Positions 14,327-24,380 of a stretch of DNA of 42,480 nt are shown in pieces (positions within the stretch are counted from its first letter, which is position 1; every line of letters begins with the position of its first letter). Origin of the DNA: an uncultured Clostridia bacterium (lineage in GTDB: Bacteria; Bacillota; Clostridia; Christensenellales; Aristaeellaceae); the NCBI GenBank assembly GCA_946542235.1, contig CAMNKK010000007.1, positions 1 to 42,480 on the forward strand, given 5' to 3'. The notes under the pieces were generated by a model. That model searched no databases. It saw nothing but the letters and a program-made list of their open reading frames with translations, and had not been told where the DNA came from. The position numbers and the translations under genes are program-made.

Positions 14327-15784
14327 ATGGCATCCAGCACCCGGAAAAACGCGATGTACAATGTGGCCTACCGCCTGTTTTCTGTGCTTTTGCCCCTGGT
14401 TACAGCCCCGTATCTTTCCCGGACGGTCGGCCCGGAAGGTGTGGGGCTTTATTCGCGCGCATGGAATATCAGCTACATCTTCTGCCTGGCGGCCATGCTG
14501 GGGCTGAATGACTACGGCGTACGGGCGATCGCCCGGACGCGGGATGACCCGAAGGAGCTGAACAGAACCTTTTCCGCCATCTGGCAGATGCAGCTGATGG
14601 TGGCGGGCTTTCTGACGGTGCTCTGGCTGGGATATGTGTTTTTCGTCGCCGGGGAGGAGAAGGAAATCGCGTTCCATCTGACGCTGATGAGCGTCAGCTG
14701 CCTGGTCAGCTTTGACTGGTGTCTGATGGGGCTGGATATCTTCCGGCCGATCGCCCTGCGGAATACCTTCGTGAAAACGGCTGCCGCGGTCTGCGTCTTC
14801 GTGTTTGTGCATGAGAAGAACGATCTGTGGATCTACGGCCTGGTGTGGAGTCTGGCAACGCTGGCGGGGAACCTGAGCTGTCTGCCAAGCCTGCGGGGGA
14901 AGGTCCGGTACACCCGGGTTCCGCTGCGGGAGAGCCTGAAGCATCTGGCGCCCTGCGCGGTGCTGTTCATTTCGGTCATGGCGGTGAATGTCTATCGGAC
15001 CATGGACAAGGTGATGGTCAGCGGCATCGCCGGGCTGGAACAGAACGGGCAGTATGAGAATGCGGAAAAGATCATCTACTGCCTCAGCGGCTTCATTTCC
15101 GCCATCGGGACCGTGATGATGCCCAAGATCAGCCACATGCAGAAGCAGGGAAGAATCGGAGAAATCAGGGAGCACATCGGCAGGAGCATGAATCTGATCC
15201 TGTGCATGGTCTGCGCCATGGCCTTTGGCGTGGCCGCGGTGGCGGATCGCTTTGCCCCGCTGTTTTACGGAGAGGAATTTGCATATGCCGGCACGCTGAT
15301 GGCGCCCCTGGCCATGACGCTGATCATGATCGGGTTTGCCAATGTGATCCGGACCCAGTGGGTGCTGCCGCAGGGGCGGGACTCCATCTTCGTCCGGAGC
15401 GTTTGCGCCGGGGCGGCAGTCAACCTGGCGGTGAACGCCTGCCTGATTCCCGGCATGAAGAGCATGGGCGCGGTCATCGGAACCCTGATGGCGGAGATGA
15501 CGGTGCCGACGGTACAGTATCTGCTGCTGCGAAAAGAGCTTCCCTACAGGCGTTATCTCGGATACACGGGCGTCTATATGCTGATCGGCGCCGCCATGCT
15601 GCTGTGCGTACGGGGAGCCGGAAAAATCATACCCTGGGGCGGCTGGGCCGGCCTGGGAGTTCAGGTGCTGGTCGGAATCTCTGTTTACGGGATACTGACG
15701 CTTCTCTACTGGAAGCTGTCCGGATTCCGGCCCGGCTCCGGGCTTCTCCGGAAAATATCGGGCGGGCACGGAAAAAAGGCTTGA
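14327..15784 (+). CDS. Polysaccharide flippase (Wzx/MATE-like PST family)
   Basis: Integral membrane protein of 485 aa with 12 to 14 predicted helices. It resembles the polysaccharide biosynthesis (PST) family that flips undecaprenyl-linked oligosaccharides across the membrane. The N-terminus matches the family, with YRLFSVLLPLVTAPYLSR followed by GPEGVGLYS and the conserved NDYGVRAIAR. The start is ATG 14327 after GGAGGAG. It is the only flippase in the window and lies apart from the glycosyltransferases at 9.0-10.7 kb. Its stop codon is embedded in the -35 box of the next promoter. Confidence 0.88.
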   Translation: MASSTRKNAMYNVAYRLFSVLLPLVTAPYLSRTVGPEGVGLYSRAWNISYIFCLAAMLGLNDYGVRAIARTRDDPKELNRTFSAIWQMQLMVAGFLTVLWLGYVFFVAGEEKEIAFHLTLMSVSCLVSFDWCLMGLDIFRPIALRNTFVKTAAAVCVFVFVHEKNDLWIYGLVWSLATLAGNLSCLPSLRGKVRYTRVPLRESLKHLAPCAVLFISVMAVNVYRTMDKVMVSGIAGLEQNGQYENAEKIIYCLSGFISAIGTVMMPKISHMQKQGRIGEIREHIGRSMNLILCMVCAMAFGVAAVADRFAPLFYGEEFAYAGTLMAPLAMTLIMIGFANVIRTQWVLPQGRDSIFVRSVCAGAAVNLAVNACLIPGMKSMGAVIGTLMAEMTVPTVQYLLLRKELPYRRYLGYTGVYMLIGAAMLLCVRGAGKIIPWGGWAGLGVQVLVGISVYGILTLLYWKLSGFRPGSGLLRKISGGHGKKA

Positions 15785-15809
15785 CGTTCACCGGAGAGAG
15801 TGATAAAAT
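15781..15809 (+). promoter_or_regulatory. Promoter of the T-box leader
   Basis: -35 TTGACG (15781-15786) and -10 TAAAAT (15804-15809), 17-nt spacer. The -35 overlaps the TGA stop of the flippase gene. Confidence 0.7.
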
Positions 15810-15825
15810 CCACCTAATTTCATAC

Positions 15826-16075
15826 AAAGGCTGTGACGAAGACGGGACAGCGGGACGCCCCGCAGAGAGCCGGGTATGGTGTGAACCGGCGGGCTGAAGC
15901 TTCATCCTATCCCTTCCGAGCCGGAAAGCCGAAAGGTTTTGTCCCAGTAGGTTTTCCCGTGAATGCTGCGTCAACGCATAGGGCATGAATGTGCCTGAAG
16001 TGGCGTGCCTGGCACGCAATTTGAGTGGTACCGCGAGTCTGAAGACCCGTCTCAAAGCTGAGACGGGTCTTTTTA
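15826..16075 (+). promoter_or_regulatory. T-box leader (tRNA-sensing riboswitch)
   Basis: Stem I is recognisable. The base is GGCU/AGCC (15829-15832 with 15919-15922) with a kink-turn-like GUGACGAAG/CUUCCGAG. The distal part has AGAGAGCC and GGTGTGAACCGGC. A TGCGT/ACGCA hairpin (about 15967-15976) resembles stem III. The T-box proper, GAGTGGTACCGCG, is at 16023-16035. Its TGGT would pair with a tRNA end having discriminator A. The terminator follows. The specifier codon is not certain. TTC (Phe, 15901-15903) is favoured because it is followed by A; CCT (15906-15908) is an alternative. The riboswitch should let transcription pass when the matching tRNA is uncharged. Confidence 0.88.
16043..16075 (+). 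terminator. T-box leader terminator
   Basis: A 12-bp perfect stem (16043-16054 with 16059-16070), 4-nt loop and five to six Ts. This is the default terminator that the T-box antiterminator would disrupt. Confidence 0.9.
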
Positions 16076-16156
16076 TTCGGATGCCGGCAGGGATCAACCG
16101 CCCCTGGCCTGCCGGACAATCCCCGGGGCAGACAGAATGAAAAGGAGAAAGGGACC

Positions 16157-18424
16157 ATGCAGACTCAGACCGACCTCAGTCAGCTCAGCGCCATCGCTTC
16201 CCGCGTCCGGGAAATGCGTGAAATCATGGGATGGACCCAGGAAGAAATGGCGGAAAAGACGGAAGTTTCCCTGGAGGATTACCTGCGCTATGAAGCGGGC
16301 CGGACGGACATGCCTTTTACCTTTATCTACAAGTCCGCGCAGGCCTTCAACATGGAGCTGACGGAGCTGCTGGAAGGTCATAACGCCTTCCTGTCCTCCT
16401 ATACGGTTACCCGCCGGGAAAAAGGAGAGTCCACCGCCCGGGAGGAAGGAATCGCCATCTCCAACCTGGCGCCGAAATTCAAGGACAAAAAAGCGGAGCC
16501 CTACTGGGTTCGCTATGAGTATTCCGAAAAACAGCAGAATGAGCCGATTCATCTGACCACGCACCACGGGCAGGAGTTTGACCTGATCCTGCAGGGCAGC
16601 CTGAAGGTGCAGGTCGGCGACCATACAGAGATTCTGCATGAGGGCGACAGTATCTATTACAACTCTTCTCTGCCCCATGGAATGATCGCGGTGGACGGGA
16701 AGGACTGCGTATTCTGCGCGATTATCCTCCCCGGCGAGCCGGAAGAGGAAAAGCAGGAAACCGCTGTGCTGCCGCAGATCCGGCAGGAGACGCACCTGAT
16801 CGCGGAAAAGTTTGTCGAGACCGTGGAGGACGAACAGGGCCGGCTGCAGAAGATTCAGTTCCGGAACACGGAGACCTTCAACTTCGGCTTCGATATCGTG
16901 GACGAGATTGCCCGGGCCTATCCGGACAAGCTGGCCATGCTCTATGTGGACAGGAACCACCGGGAGCAGCGCTTCACTTTCAAGGAGATCAAGGACGCGT
17001 CCAACCAGGCCGCCAACTACTTCACTTCCCTGGGCATTCAGCGCGGGGACCGGGTCATGCTGGTGCTGAAGCGGCATTACCAGTTCTGGTTCTCCATGGT
17101 AGCCCTGCACAAGCTGGGCGCCATCGCCATCCCGGCTACCAACCAGCTGAAGGAGCACGACTTTGAATACCGGTTCAACGCGGCGGGCGTGAAGGCTATC
17201 GTCTGCACCGGGGACGGGGATACCGCCGAGATTGCGGAAAGGGCGGCGGCCAAATGCCCCAGCGTGAAAACCCTGATCATGGTCAACGGCACCCGGGAGG
17301 GGTGGCATGATTTCAACGCGGAATATCCGCTGTTTACCCGCCGCTTCCGCCGTCAGCCCGACAGCTCCTGCGGCGATGATACGGCCCTCATGTTCTTCAC
17401 CTCCGGCACCACCGGCAACCCCAAGATGGCCGCCCACAAGCATACCTATGCCCTGGGACACTATGTAACGGCCCGGTACTGGCACTGCTGCGAGCGGGAC
17501 GGCCTGCACCTGACCATCTCGGACACGGGATGGGGCAAGTCCCTCTGGGGCAAGCTTTACGGCCAGTGGCTCTGCGAGGGCGCGGTGTTTGTGTATGATT
17601 TCGACAAGTTCGACGCAGCGGACATCCTGCCCATGTTCAAGAAGTACAATATCACAACCTTCTGCGCGCCGCCCACCATGCTGAGAATGTTCATCAAGGT
17701 GGATCTGTCCAGATACGACCTGTCCTCCATCCATCACATGACCACCGCCGGCGAGGCGCTGAATCCGGAGGTGTACCGGCAGTTTGAAAAGGCAACCGGC
17801 CTGAAGATCATGGAGGGCTTCGGCCAGACGGAAACCACCCTGACCATCGGCAATCTGTACGGCACGGTGCCGAAGATCGGCTCCATGGGCAAGGCCAGCC
17901 CGCAGTTCGACGTGGATATTGTGGATCCGGACGGCAATCCCGTCGCCAACGGCGAGGTGGGCGAAATTGTCATCCATACGGACAAATCCATTCCCTGCGG
18001 CCTGTTCCGGGAATACTATCTGGACGAAGAGAAGACGAAGGAAGCCTGGCACGACGGGCTGTACCACACCGGCGATACCGCCTGGCGGGATGAGGACGGC
18101 TACTTCTGGTATGTCAGCCGGATCGACGATGTAATCAAGTCCTCCGGATATCGGATCGGGCCGTTCGAAATCGAAAGCGTGATCATGGAGCTGCCCTATG
18201 TGCTGGAGTGCGGCGTCTCCGCCGAGCCGGACGATATCCGCGGCCAGATCGTGAAGGCCTCCATCGTGCTGACGGAGGGCACGGAGGGCACGGAGGAACT
18301 GAAGAAGGAAATTCAGCAGTATGTGAAGATGCATACGGCTCCTTACAAGTATCCCCGGAAAATCGTATTCCGGAAGGAGCTTCCGAAAACCATTTCCGGA
18401 AAGATCCAGCGGAACCTGCTGTAA
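16157..18424 (+). CDS. HTH-cupin-acyl-CoA/acid-thiol ligase fusion
   Basis: Three-part protein of 755 aa. Residues 10-75 form an XRE-type helix-turn-helix (MGWTQEEMAEKTEVS). Residues 115-195 form a cupin sensor-like barrel (EFDLILQGSL, HEGDSIYYNSSLPHG). Residues 225-755 form an AMP-forming acyl-CoA ligase of the ACSM/acetyl-CoA synthetase type, with FTSGTTGNPK at 414-423, GFGQTET at 554-560, YHTGD at 636-640, R655 and the catalytic lysine K749 in SGKIQR. All catalytic motifs are intact. The ligase domain should activate a carboxylic acid to its CoA thioester using ATP; which acid is unknown. T-box control links it to amino-acid supply. The HTH-cupin part may allow DNA or ligand binding. It looks monocistronic. 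Confidence 0.88.
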   Translation: MQTQTDLSQLSAIASRVREMREIMGWTQEEMAEKTEVSLEDYLRYEAGRTDMPFTFIYKSAQAFNMELTELLEGHNAFLSSYTVTRREKGESTAREEGIAISNLAPKFKDKKAEPYWVRYEYSEKQQNEPIHLTTHHGQEFDLILQGSLKVQVGDHTEILHEGDSIYYNSSLPHGMIAVDGKDCVFCAIILPGEPEEEKQETAVLPQIRQETHLIAEKFVETVEDEQGRLQKIQFRNTETFNFGFDIVDEIARAYPDKLAMLYVDRNHREQRFTFKEIKDASNQAANYFTSLGIQRGDRVMLVLKRHYQFWFSMVALHKLGAIAIPATNQLKEHDFEYRFNAAGVKAIVCTGDGDTAEIAERAAAKCPSVKTLIMVNGTREGWHDFNAEYPLFTRRFRRQPDSSCGDDTALMFFTSGTTGNPKMAAHKHTYALGHYVTARYWHCCERDGLHLTISDTGWGKSLWGKLYGQWLCEGAVFVYDFDKFDAADILPMFKKYNITTFCAPPTMLRMFIKVDLSRYDLSSIHHMTTAGEALNPEVYRQFEKATGLKIMEGFGQTETTLTIGNLYGTVPKIGSMGKASPQFDVDIVDPDGNPVANGEVGEIVIHTDKSIPCGLFREYYLDEEKTKEAWHDGLYHTGDTAWRDEDGYFWYVSRIDDVIKSSGYRIGPFEIESVIMELPYVLECGVSAEPDDIRGQIVKASIVLTEGTEGTEELKKEIQQYVKMHTAPYKYPRKIVFRKELPKTISGKIQRNLL

Positions 18425-18701: not shown

Positions 18702-20480
18702 ATGAGTATTCTGGATTTTGTCATGCTTCTGGGTGGAGTGGCGATGTTCCTTTACGGAATGTCGCTGATGGGAGACGGGCTGAAAAAGGTGGCCGGCAAC
18801 CGGCTGGAGCTGATTCTGTTCCGTCTTTCCAGCACACCGCTCAGGGGCATTTTGCTTGGTACGGGGGTTACGGCGGTTATTCAGTCCTCCTCCGCAACCA
18901 GCGTGATGGTGGTGGGCTTCGTCAACTCCGGGATGATGAAGCTTCGGCAGGCGATCGCGGTCATTATGGGCGCGGTAATCGGCACAAGCATTACAGGGTG
19001 GATTATCTGCCTTTCCAGCATGTCGGGAGGGGCTTCCTCCGCGCTGGAGCTGCTGAGTACGGAGTCCCTGAGCGCGATGACGGCTGTGGCAGCCATCCTG
19101 ATGAAGACGATCGGGAAGAAGCAGAGCATCCGCCACGCGGCGGATATCCTGATGGGCTTCGCTATCCTGATGTTCGGCATGAAGACCATGAGCGGCGCGG
19201 TGTCCGTCCTTCGGGAGGATCCGGGCTTTATCTCCTTCCTGACCAGCTTTTCCAATCCGTTTCTGGGCATCCTGATCGGTATTGTCTTTACGGCGATTCT
19301 GCAGAGCGCGTCCGCGGCCGTCGGTATCCTGCAGGCCCTGTCCAGCACCGGATTGCTTACGCTGGAGACGACGCTGCCGATTATCCTTGGTATCGCTGTC
19401 GGCGCTTCAGTGCCTGTGCTGCTGTCCGGCATGGGATCCTCCCGGGAAGGAAAAAGAGCGGCCGTATCCTATCTGGTCATTGAAATTATCCGGGTGATTC
19501 TTTTCGCCGCTGTCTTCTACGGGCTGAACGCTTTCCTGCATTTCACCTTCCTGAGCCATGCGATGGACATGTTTTCCATCGCGCTGCTGAACACCTTCTT
19601 CCGGGTGGTCACCGTCGTTATTCTGGCGCCCTTCATCCCCCTGATTGAAAAACTGCTGGTCCGGCTGATCCCCGGCGAGGCGGAGGACGGGGAAACCACC
19701 CGGGATATGGACCGGCTGGAGGAGCGCTTTCTGGCTTATCCGACCCTGGCTGTGGAGCAGACCCGCCTGACCATCAACCGCATGGCGGAGCTGACACACC
19801 GGTCCATGAAGCTGGCGATTCAGCTGATGACCGAATTCTCGGACAAGGTCTATGCCGAGGTGGAAAATCTGGAGAGCGTAGTTGACCGGTATGAGGACAA
19901 GATCGGAAGCTATCTGATGAAGCTGACCGGGCGGGAAATGACGGACACCCAGAATCAGGCTGTCAGCCAGTATCTGCGCGCAATCACGGACCTGGAGCGC
20001 ATCAGCGACCACTCCCTGAACATCGCGCAGCACGCACAGGAGCTGAACGAGAAAAAGATCGCCTTCTCGGACAAGGGACAGCGGGAGATGCAGAACCTGG
20101 TCGCCGCGATACAGGAAATCCTGGACATTACCTTTGAGAGCTTCCTGGATGACAATGTGGATCAGGCCTACCGGGTGGAACCGCTGGAGCAGGTGATTGA
20201 CCGGGTATGCCGCCGGATGAAGGAAAAGCACGCGGCACGGCTCCAGAAGGGAAAATGCACCATCAGTCAGGGATATATCTTCAATGACCTGATTGTGGAC
20301 TTTGAACGGGTCAGCGACCATTGCTCCAACATCGCGATCGTAATCGTGGAGCTGCTGAGCAACGCGCTGGACGTGCACGAGATGACGGAGTCCCTCCGGT
20401 CGGACAATCTGCACCGGTACGAGGATTTCTACGAGGAATACCGCCAGAGATATCTGCGGAAAAAGGACGAAGCGGAATGA
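18702..20480 (+). CDS. Na/Pi cotransporter family protein with PhoU-like tail
   Basis: Membrane protein of 592 aa in the NptA/YjbB family, thought to move phosphate with sodium. The two repeated membrane halves carry the signature pair QSSSATSVMVV (near 66) and ILQSASAAVGIL (near 200). From about 340 the protein is a cytosolic all-helical PhoU-like domain with two repeats (TRLTINRMAELTHRSM; DLERISDHSLNIAQHA; DFERVSDHCSNIAIV). The ATG at 18702 follows GGCGGAGGA. It has its own promoter and no pst genes lie nearby. The family is sometimes annotated as phosphate export; direction cannot be read from the sequence. Confidence 0.92.
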   Translation: MSILDFVMLLGGVAMFLYGMSLMGDGLKKVAGNRLELILFRLSSTPLRGILLGTGVTAVIQSSSATSVMVVGFVNSGMMKLRQAIAVIMGAVIGTSITGWIICLSSMSGGASSALELLSTESLSAMTAVAAILMKTIGKKQSIRHAADILMGFAILMFGMKTMSGAVSVLREDPGFISFLTSFSNPFLGILIGIVFTAILQSASAAVGILQALSSTGLLTLETTLPIILGIAVGASVPVLLSGMGSSREGKRAAVSYLVIEIIRVILFAAVFYGLNAFLHFTFLSHAMDMFSIALLNTFFRVVTVVILAPFIPLIEKLLVRLIPGEAEDGETTRDMDRLEERFLAYPTLAVEQTRLTINRMAELTHRSMKLAIQLMTEFSDKVYAEVENLESVVDRYEDKIGSYLMKLTGREMTDTQNQAVSQYLRAITDLERISDHSLNIAQHAQELNEKKIAFSDKGQREMQNLVAAIQEILDITFESFLDDNVDQAYRVEPLEQVIDRVCRRMKEKHAARLQKGKCTISQGYIFNDLIVDFERVSDHCSNIAIVIVELLSNALDVHEMTESLRSDNLHRYEDFYEEYRQRYLRKKDEAE

Positions 20481-23519: not shown

Positions 23520-23570
23520 GCTTCCGGCAGAGCGGAAGCTCTGACTTTCGAGATACGGTCTTATGGAGCT

Positions 23571-23688
23571 TCTTCAGGGCAGGGTGAAAATCCCGACCGG
23601 CGGTATAGCCCGCGAGCCTTTTCCCGGATGGGAAGGGCTGATCCAGGTGAGATTCCTGAGCCGACAGTACAGTCTGGATGAAAGAAGA
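23571..23688 (+). promoter_or_regulatory. FMN riboswitch (RFN element)
   Basis: Conserved RFN blocks are present in order: CAGGGCAGGGTGAAAATCCC, GACCGGCGGT, AGCCCGCGAGCC, GATCCAGGTGAGATTCC, GAGCCGACAGT and CTGGATGAAAGAAGA. The riboswitch senses flavin mononucleotide and shuts down riboflavin uptake when FMN is plentiful. A hairpin pair downstream forms the expression platform. Confidence 0.97.
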
Positions 23689-23692
23689 GCTA

Positions 23693-23747
23693 CGGTGATA
23701 CCATTTCGTATTTACCGCCCCTGAACAGCTTTTCAGCTTCAGGGGCG
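23693..23747 (+). promoter_or_regulatory. Expression platform of the FMN riboswitch
   Basis: Two hairpins: CGGTGATAC with GTATTTACCG (23693-23717), and a perfect 10-bp CGCCCCTGAA/TTCAGGGGCG (23716-23725 with 23738-23747). They share bases at 23716-23717. The second looks like a terminator, but its tail (GTATCCATTTTA) is a weak T-tract, so control may be partial. Confidence 0.65.
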
Positions 23748-23774: not shown

Positions 23775-24380
23775 ATGACCGAAAAAAAACGTACCGCAGG
23801 CATTTTCACCACCTTCAACCTGACCCGGATGGCTTTGCTGGCCGCCATGGCGTCCGTCCTGTTTCTGGTCGAGATTCCCGTGGTGGCCTTCTACAAGCTG
23901 GATCTGAGCAACATTCCCGTGCTGCTGGGCGCCTTTTCCATGGGAACGGTTCCGGGGCTGATCATTCTGGCGGCCAAGAGCCTGATCGGCCTCCTGCATT
24001 CCTCCAGCGCCGGGATCGGCGAGCTGGCGGATTTCATCATGGGCGCTGCCATGATCGTGCCGGCTTCGGTGTTTTATCACCGGCACAAGACCCGAAAGAA
24101 CGCCCTGATCGGGATGGCTGCCGGAACCCTGTGCATGGCGGTGATCAGCGTGCTGGTCAACAAATGGATCATGCTGCCCTTCTACATGGGCGCGTACCAT
24201 ATGGACATGAGCGGCATCCTGAGCTACGCGAACACGGCGGGAGTGGACAGCGAATGGAAGCTTCTGCTGATGATTACGGCGCCGTTCAATCTGCTGAAGG
24301 GCGCGGTGCTGAGCGCGGTTACGGGGCTTATCTACAAGCCTCTTTCCCCGCTGCTGCACGAGAAAGGAAACATAAGGTGA
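23775..24380 (+). CDS. ribU: ECF transporter riboflavin-binding component RibU
   Basis: Integral membrane S-component of 201 aa with about six helices. It binds riboflavin and works with the shared ECF energising module (EcfA, EcfA', EcfT), which is not in this window. Family marks are FYKLDLSNIPVLLGAF (39-54) and IGELADFIMGA (81-91). The FMN riboswitch directly upstream confirms the flavin role. The start ATG 23775 follows GGAGGG. The stop overlaps the GTG start of tsaE as GTGA. Confidence 0.95.
   Translation: MTEKKRTAGIFTTFNLTRMALLAAMASVLFLVEIPVVAFYKLDLSNIPVLLGAFSMGTVPGLIILAAKSLIGLLHSSSAGIGELADFIMGAAMIVPASVFYHRHKTRKNALIGMAAGTLCMAVISVLVNKWIMLPFYMGAYHMDMSGILSYANTAGVDSEWKLLLMITAPFNLLKGAVLSAVTGLIYKPLSPLLHEKGNIR

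Follow-up and report, generated by a model that had tools for sequence, protein, structure and literature searches.

An isoleucine-type T-box leader ahead of an HTH-cupin-acyl-CoA ligase gene in an uncultured Clostridia bacterium, and a predicted route from 2-methylbutyrate to isoleucine

The window analysed here is a stretch of 42,480 nucleotides (positions 1 to 42,480 of the forward strand of contig CAMNKK010000007.1, assembly GCA_946542235.1) from an uncultured Clostridia bacterium of the family Aristaeellaceae. This report deals with a T-box riboswitch leader in this window, the specifier of which reads as an isoleucine (Ile) codon, and with the gene directly behind it, which encodes a protein composed of a helix-turn-helix (HTH), a cupin and an acyl-coenzyme A (CoA) ligase part (Table 1). 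The leader serves this one gene; on the same strand, the next gene with a Pfam match begins at 18702 and encodes a Na/Pi cotransporter. A paralogous ligase on contig 45 of the same genome shares 62% identity with the window ligase and has a T-box of its own. Relatives nearest to the window gene are here called Ile-type, those nearest to the paralog valine (Val)-type. A first-pass annotation, made from the letters of the window, had already described a complete T-box leader with a TGGT bulge before a single ligase gene, and these observations proved right.

The leader is a real and complete T-box. It matches the Rfam model RF00230 with 84.8 bits (E 4e-19 in a scan of 421 bases, 4.8e-19 in a genome-wide scan), and it displays the hallmarks of the class, i.e., a UGGN bulge, here UGGU, and an alternative terminator upstream of the gene. 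The gathering score of RF00230 is 93. Because the leader stays below it, the default Rfam scan of the window, which lists a flavin mononucleotide (FMN) riboswitch and a tRNA, misses the T-box. The leaders of six related ligases lie on both sides of this score: three pass (one Ile-type with 101.4 bits, two Val-type with 98.2 and 95.2 bits) and three stay below (83.3, 69.9 and 66.2 bits). The pattern scan that gave the promoter found one such pattern against a mean of 0.2 in shuffles. The terminator hairpin is absent from the output of that scan; 0 of 200 shuffles were equally stable.

Table 1. Elements of the T-box leader and domains of the ligase in the window
Feature	Position	Strand	Basis or remark
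Sigma-70-like promoter, TTGACG-17-TAAAAT, TG preceding the second hexamer	15781..15809	+	10/12 matches
T-box leader (stem I, stem II, antiterminator)	15824..16057	+	RF00230, model positions 1-219 (full length)
Specifier triplet AUC (Ile)	15909..15911	+	Register from T-boxes with recognisable targets; one base ahead of the covarying CUUC strand
CUUC strand of the stem I helix beside the specifier	15913..15916	+	Covariation; contains the TTC once taken for a Phe codon
T-box bulge UGGU	16026..16029	+	Read from sequence; predicted partner is the ACCA end of a discriminator-A tRNA
Intrinsic terminator hairpin, then T run	16041..16072	+	-24 kcal/mol, z -8.0
HTH-cupin-acyl-CoA ligase, 755 aa, Ile-type	16157..18424	+	Pfam HTH_19, Cupin_2, AMP-binding, AMP-binding_C
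Helix-turn-helix, residues 13-74	16193..16378	+	HTH_19 3e-10, HTH_3, HTH_31
Cupin region, residues 115-190 (Cupin_2 match 130-189)	16499..16726	+	H136, E140, H174 invariant in 31 aligned rows
AMP-binding domain, residues 249-621	16901..18019	+	1.7e-68
AMP-binding C-terminal domain, residues 671-749, invariant K749	18167..18403	+	Pfam and alignment

The register of the specifier was taken from Rfam alignments of the six T-boxes of the window genome, the triplet standing six bases before a GAG near the base of stem I. Three of these T-boxes have a target recognised by homology: CUG (Leu) precedes a leuA-type gene (leuA 278 bits, under the model cut-off), UAC (Tyr) an operon with tyrosyl-tRNA synthetase as its second gene, and UGG (Trp) a TrpX-type transporter (226 bits, under the model cut-off). 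One register fits all three, and it yields AUC (Ile) in the window leader and GUC (Val) ahead of the contig-45 paralog. AUC is the usual isoleucine specifier, as it accounts for 0.99 of the Ile T-boxes in TBDB according to an excerpt of PMC7778990. The neighbouring registers were tried and rejected. At -2, -1 and +2 several amino acids appear in both ligase groups. At +1 all 119 Ile-type leaders read Ser (UCN), but 66 of the 78 Val-type leaders then show stop codons and the controls are misread. The UGGU bulge fits the tRNAs for both amino acids, since tRNA-Ile(GAU), as read in the relative G035, and tRNA-Val(UAC), as read in the window genome, carry discriminator A.

The first-pass annotation had favoured the triplet TTC, i.e., phenylalanine, as the specifier and had considered the specifier loop atypical. 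Neither survived: the helices around the loop covary in relatives, and TTC is part of one of them. This helix 2 is paired in 99.6% of cells among 56 relatives, with changes on both sides in 4 of 4 pairs. The whole stem I structure is paired in 94.9% of cells with a covariation score of 0.437, and none of 500 shuffles attained either value; one pair at the base of the stem is unpaired in 20 of the 56. The alignment comprises 56 members of a random draw of 60 from 179 distinct stem I stretches; the 179 had been picked by a pattern that fixes bases after the specifier and leaves the specifier itself free. A Phe T-box that controls a phenylacetate ligase for phenylalanine synthesis is thereby rendered extremely improbable. 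TTC does occur near the specifier and discriminator A would suit tRNA-Phe too, but the triplet is buried in a covarying helix, and the register established above reads AUC throughout the Ile-type leaders.

How consistently the codons follow the ligases is evident from a survey of relatives. A T-box was found for 197 of 221 distinct full-length HTH-cupin-ligase genes. All 119 Ile-type leaders read AUC, while a valine codon appears in 76 of the 78 Val-type leaders (64 GUA, 10 GUC, 2 GUG); such variation at the third position is the behaviour expected of a specifier. On a ligase tree of 105 rows (102 of the 221 genes plus 3 outgroup rows), a single change suffices to explain the Ile and Val labels, with the proviso that the tree stems from a quick search, that its deep forks are weak and that not all AUC lineages fall within the main Ile clade. 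The survey model, R2, was built on stem I of the 56 relatives and searched 181 of 204 sources; the other 23 are mainly duplicate loci, non-ligase stretches, four stretches of the window genome and L077. An earlier covariance model, R1, held one helix and was unused for searching. R2 misses the Trp leader L034, which Rfam detects. The 221 genes exclude shorter and split relatives, the T-boxes of which read ATC or GTA, or AGC in one weak match (L189). Away from the HTH-cupin-ligases, 15 of 19 R2 matches read leucine codons, and those examined precede leuA and a fusion of a TIM barrel with a ligase. No T-box was detected at the ligases L050, a tight tandem pair, and L055; there another control must act.

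The ligase part is an AMP-forming acyl-CoA ligase of the ANL superfamily. It has both domains, and the TSGTTG stretch and the C-terminal catalytic lysine, motifs of ANL ligases, are invariant in all 31 rows of the alignment (29 Ile-type, 2 Val-type). The closest PDB chain is 3etc, with 610 bits over residues 220-752; the next chain reaches 335. The 3etc enzyme, MacsMa of Methanosarcina acetivorans, prefers 2-methylbutyrate, as stated in an excerpt of PMC10455477. The best NCBIfam model is MbcS (NF047394), an enzyme that, according to PMC10026030, is selective for 2-methylbutyrate and isobutyrate and a poor activator of isovalerate. These likenesses suggest that the window ligase, too, acts on 2-methylbutyrate. 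HTH-cupin and ligase are two adjacent genes, the ligase being shorter, in L155, L156, L186, L187, L189 and L190, and in L187 stem I of an AUC T-box ends 151 bases upstream of the HTH-cupin match. Because the HTH-cupin thus stands separately before a shorter ligase in some relatives, the window gene appears to have joined a likely regulator to its enzyme.

According to PMC10026030, MbcS serves fatty-acid synthesis. With MbcS as the best model, the window ligase might stand under an isoleucine-specific T-box and supply 2-methylbutyryl-CoA from which anteiso branched-chain fatty acids are started, the role of MbcS in Staphylococcus aureus. This primer normally derives from isoleucine, too, and its use for fatty acids can coexist with isoleucine synthesis. 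We regard this explanation as unlikely. The annotated neighbours, which are a subset of all neighbours, comprise no fatty-acid gene, and the gene that does recur nearby, vorB, stands for 2-oxoacid chemistry.

The neighbourhood was read from named loci, the best 80 of at least 584 relatives; most of them are, to judge by their record titles, genome assemblies obtained from animal gut samples. In 54 of these 80 the Ile-type ligase gene is succeeded by a Val-type one in the same orientation, and vorB lies downstream of the tandem in 44 of the 45 loci with enough sequence, the exception being L086. In L097, for example, the Ile ligase and then the Val ligase are followed by a small P-loop protein, by VorB (541 bits, cut-off 399) and by genes that match models of the beta and gamma subunits. 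The protein between Val ligase and vorB, of 221-233 residues, is an observation of its own: it shows a weak CbiA/ParA-type P-loop match (L097:10928-11593, L116:10904-11605). No T-box was found directly before vorB in the three vorB-bearing stretches scanned (L097, L158, L160). The window genome itself contains a branched 2-oxoacid:ferredoxin oxidoreductase, with VorB (564 bits, cut-off 399) beside genes for beta and gamma subunits (below their model cut-offs) on contig 28. It also has one Aminotran_4 gene, a putative branched-chain aminotransferase.

The canonical pathway to valine and isoleucine is, at model cut-offs, missing from the genus genomes searched. Neither ilvC (two weak matches) nor ilvD (sub-cut-off matches in 7) exceeded its cut-off in any of the 45 genus genomes searched, and acetolactate synthase did so in none of the 28 searched (17 weaker matches, the best with 441 of the 538 bits needed). 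Unless the two amino acids are imported, another route to them is needed, which again argues against a mere fatty-acid primer. At least one of the two ligase types was found in 39 of the 45 genomes, and the remaining six are at most 80% complete. Among 100 relatives, ilvC exceeded its cut-off in 1 of 53 genomes with a ligase versus 18 of 47 without, and in a sample of the class in 15 of 56 with versus 154 of 237 without; with the count restricted to ligases scoring 1048 bits or more, the former figure becomes 1 of 33. These tables were read by eye, count either ligase type and take in a few genes truncated at contig ends; the P values derived from them (3e-6, 3e-7, 2e-12) are too small, as they ignore shared ancestry.

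Specifier codons, paralogs, vorB neighbourhood and missing ilvC and ilvD together lead us to an interpretation that we hold to be probable: the window gene would encode a starvation-induced ligase that feeds 2-methylbutyrate, as its CoA ester, into reductive carboxylation and so into isoleucine, and its twin would do the same with isobutyrate for valine. In detail, the leader would be a transcriptional T-box riboswitch reading tRNA-Ile. When isoleucine is short, the AUC triplet would pair with the GAU anticodon of uncharged tRNA-Ile and the UGGU bulge with the ACCA end of this tRNA; formation of the antiterminator would then permit read-through into the ligase gene. The ligase would use ATP and CoA to convert 2-methylbutyrate, which other gut microbes release when they degrade isoleucine, to 2-methylbutyryl-CoA, from which a VorBAC-type 2-oxoacid:ferredoxin oxidoreductase would make 3-methyl-2-oxopentanoate by reductive carboxylation, and an aminotransferase would finally yield isoleucine. 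The contig-45 paralog would serve a parallel valine route under a tRNA-Val T-box, probably with isobutyrate as substrate, and the fused HTH-cupin part is probably a second layer of control.

The direction of this chemistry deserves a comment. 2-Oxoacid:ferredoxin oxidoreductases are reversible and work oxidatively in many anaerobes. Ligase and VorBAC might, hence, belong to isoleucine or valine breakdown, the ligase just re-activating acid that has leaked. This we consider very unlikely. A T-box responds to a shortage of its amino acid by switching genes on, which is contrary to the needs of breakdown, and an AMP-forming ligase costs ATP. An Ile T-box before the ligase thus speaks for synthesis rather than breakdown.

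That the ligase is controlled by a T-box and feeds a reductive carboxylation to an amino acid had also been proposed in the first-pass annotation, and this part is well supported. The particular version, phenylacetate to phenylalanine, has to be abandoned: the specifier is that for isoleucine, the nearest characterised enzymes (3etc, MbcS) use branched acids, and aryl acids appear to have genes of their own. The genome search for oxidoreductases that had been suggested revealed, besides the vorBAC-type trio of contig 28, two clusters, on contigs 2 and 10 (L143:4826-8547, L144:4971-8632), each with iorA, a gene with a POR domain and a ligase with AMP-binding_C_2. The latter domain marks the phenylacetate-CoA ligase type; these clusters likely suit aryl acids, and such a role for the window ligase is thought unlikely. 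The acids earlier listed for an assay did include 2-methylbutyrate, although phenylacetate had been the favourite.

A number of observations weigh against the isoleucine reading or limit it. The MbcS score of the window ligase, 447.9 bits, is far below the curated cut-off of 850, so that the protein is not filed as MbcS and its substrate is transferred by resemblance alone. The register controls are few, and the serine register at +1 is excluded by the Val type and the controls alone; for this reason, and for the patchy occurrence of the Ile-type gene, our confidence is slightly lowered. A tRNA-Ile gene is not among the 21 tRNAs found in the window genome, which is 86% complete, and there both ligases and vorBAC reside on separate contigs. 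The Ile-type gene is not universal in the genus, as it is present at full length in just 23 of the 45 genomes and, counted by eye, in 9 of the 13 with a completeness of 90% or more, whereas the Val type occurs in all 13. The four others (G010, G018, G019, G031) must obtain isoleucine otherwise. For these four the Val type is listed and the Ile type is not; G018, G019 and G031 have distant ligases of 46-51% identity, and in some of the four such ligases perhaps stand in for the Ile-type gene. The 15 ligase genomes of the class sample that do carry ilvC tell against a strict replacement. Two Val-scored genes, L150 and L180, have AUC leaders; they are distant and almost equidistant from both queries, and a change of specifier or substrate is possible. 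Finally, 24 of the 221 genes lack a T-box call. Three of them have fewer than 300 bases upstream, and L077, with 182 bases, was outside the T-box search.

Leucine may have a comparable locus. On contig 4 of the window genome (L038:1828-5768), a CUG (Leu) T-box is followed by the leuA-type gene and a gene for a protein of 837 residues in which a TIM barrel (AP_endonuc_2) is fused to an acyl-CoA ligase; the pair of leuA and this fusion recurs in 16 of the 80 named loci. The fusion may activate isovalerate. One could extend this to an island of gut Clostridia in which Leu, Ile and Val T-boxes gate ligases for isovalerate, 2-methylbutyrate and isobutyrate, respectively, the Ile and Val ligases being DNA-binding HTH-cupin sensors as well. 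If so, a lack of the amino acid together with a supply of the acid would be required for synthesis to begin. We offer this extension as speculative and rather doubtful.

Two further observations concern transport. On contig 3 (L036/L041) a UGG T-box precedes a transporter of the energy-coupling factor (ECF) type with two ATPases and a CbiQ-like subunit, a candidate tryptophan importer. In the window, the FMN riboswitch (23566-23693, 112 bits) lies before an ECF transporter substrate subunit (23775-24380), which is probably a riboflavin importer.

Fibre-degrading bacteria need these branched acids, and work on isoleucine formation from 2-methylbutyrate in the rumen reportedly dates from about 1969. 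For rumen fermentation, an excerpt of PMC7356843 names 2-methylbutyrate as the precursor of isoleucine and isobutyrate as that of valine, citing a 1971 paper for the latter. The present analysis would name candidate genes for this amino-acid route, known since about 1970, in many uncultured gut species. T-box codons here label two paralogous ligases by amino acid, which is beyond the reach of homology alone. Acid-activating ligases would be added to the targets of T-boxes, and a natural Ile/Val pair would become available for studying specifier change and the selectivity of the acyl pocket. T-boxes and such ligases were each known before; what appears new is their pairing, the Ile/Val twin and the link to vorB, which we did not find described in the open-licence papers searched, so that prior mention elsewhere is possible.

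How does the system compare with known ones? With other T-boxes of RF00230 the window leader shares stem I with its specifier loop, stem II, the UGGN bulge, the antiterminator and the terminator; it differs in its target, an HTH-cupin-acyl-CoA ligase predicted to act on branched acids. MacsMa resembles the ligase part, but it is archaeal, and its chain of 580 residues leaves no room for an HTH-cupin part. MbcS of Staphylococcus aureus provides the best model, yet this covers the ligase part only, and the enzyme works in fatty-acid synthesis. The closest parallel in terms of metabolism is the reductive carboxylation by VOR and IOR enzymes of anaerobes: the sequence acid, acyl-CoA, 2-oxoacid, amino acid is shared, and vorB lies beside the ligases in relatives. 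In contrast to those routes, the activating ligase here has an amino-acid-specific T-box, with one paralog per amino acid.

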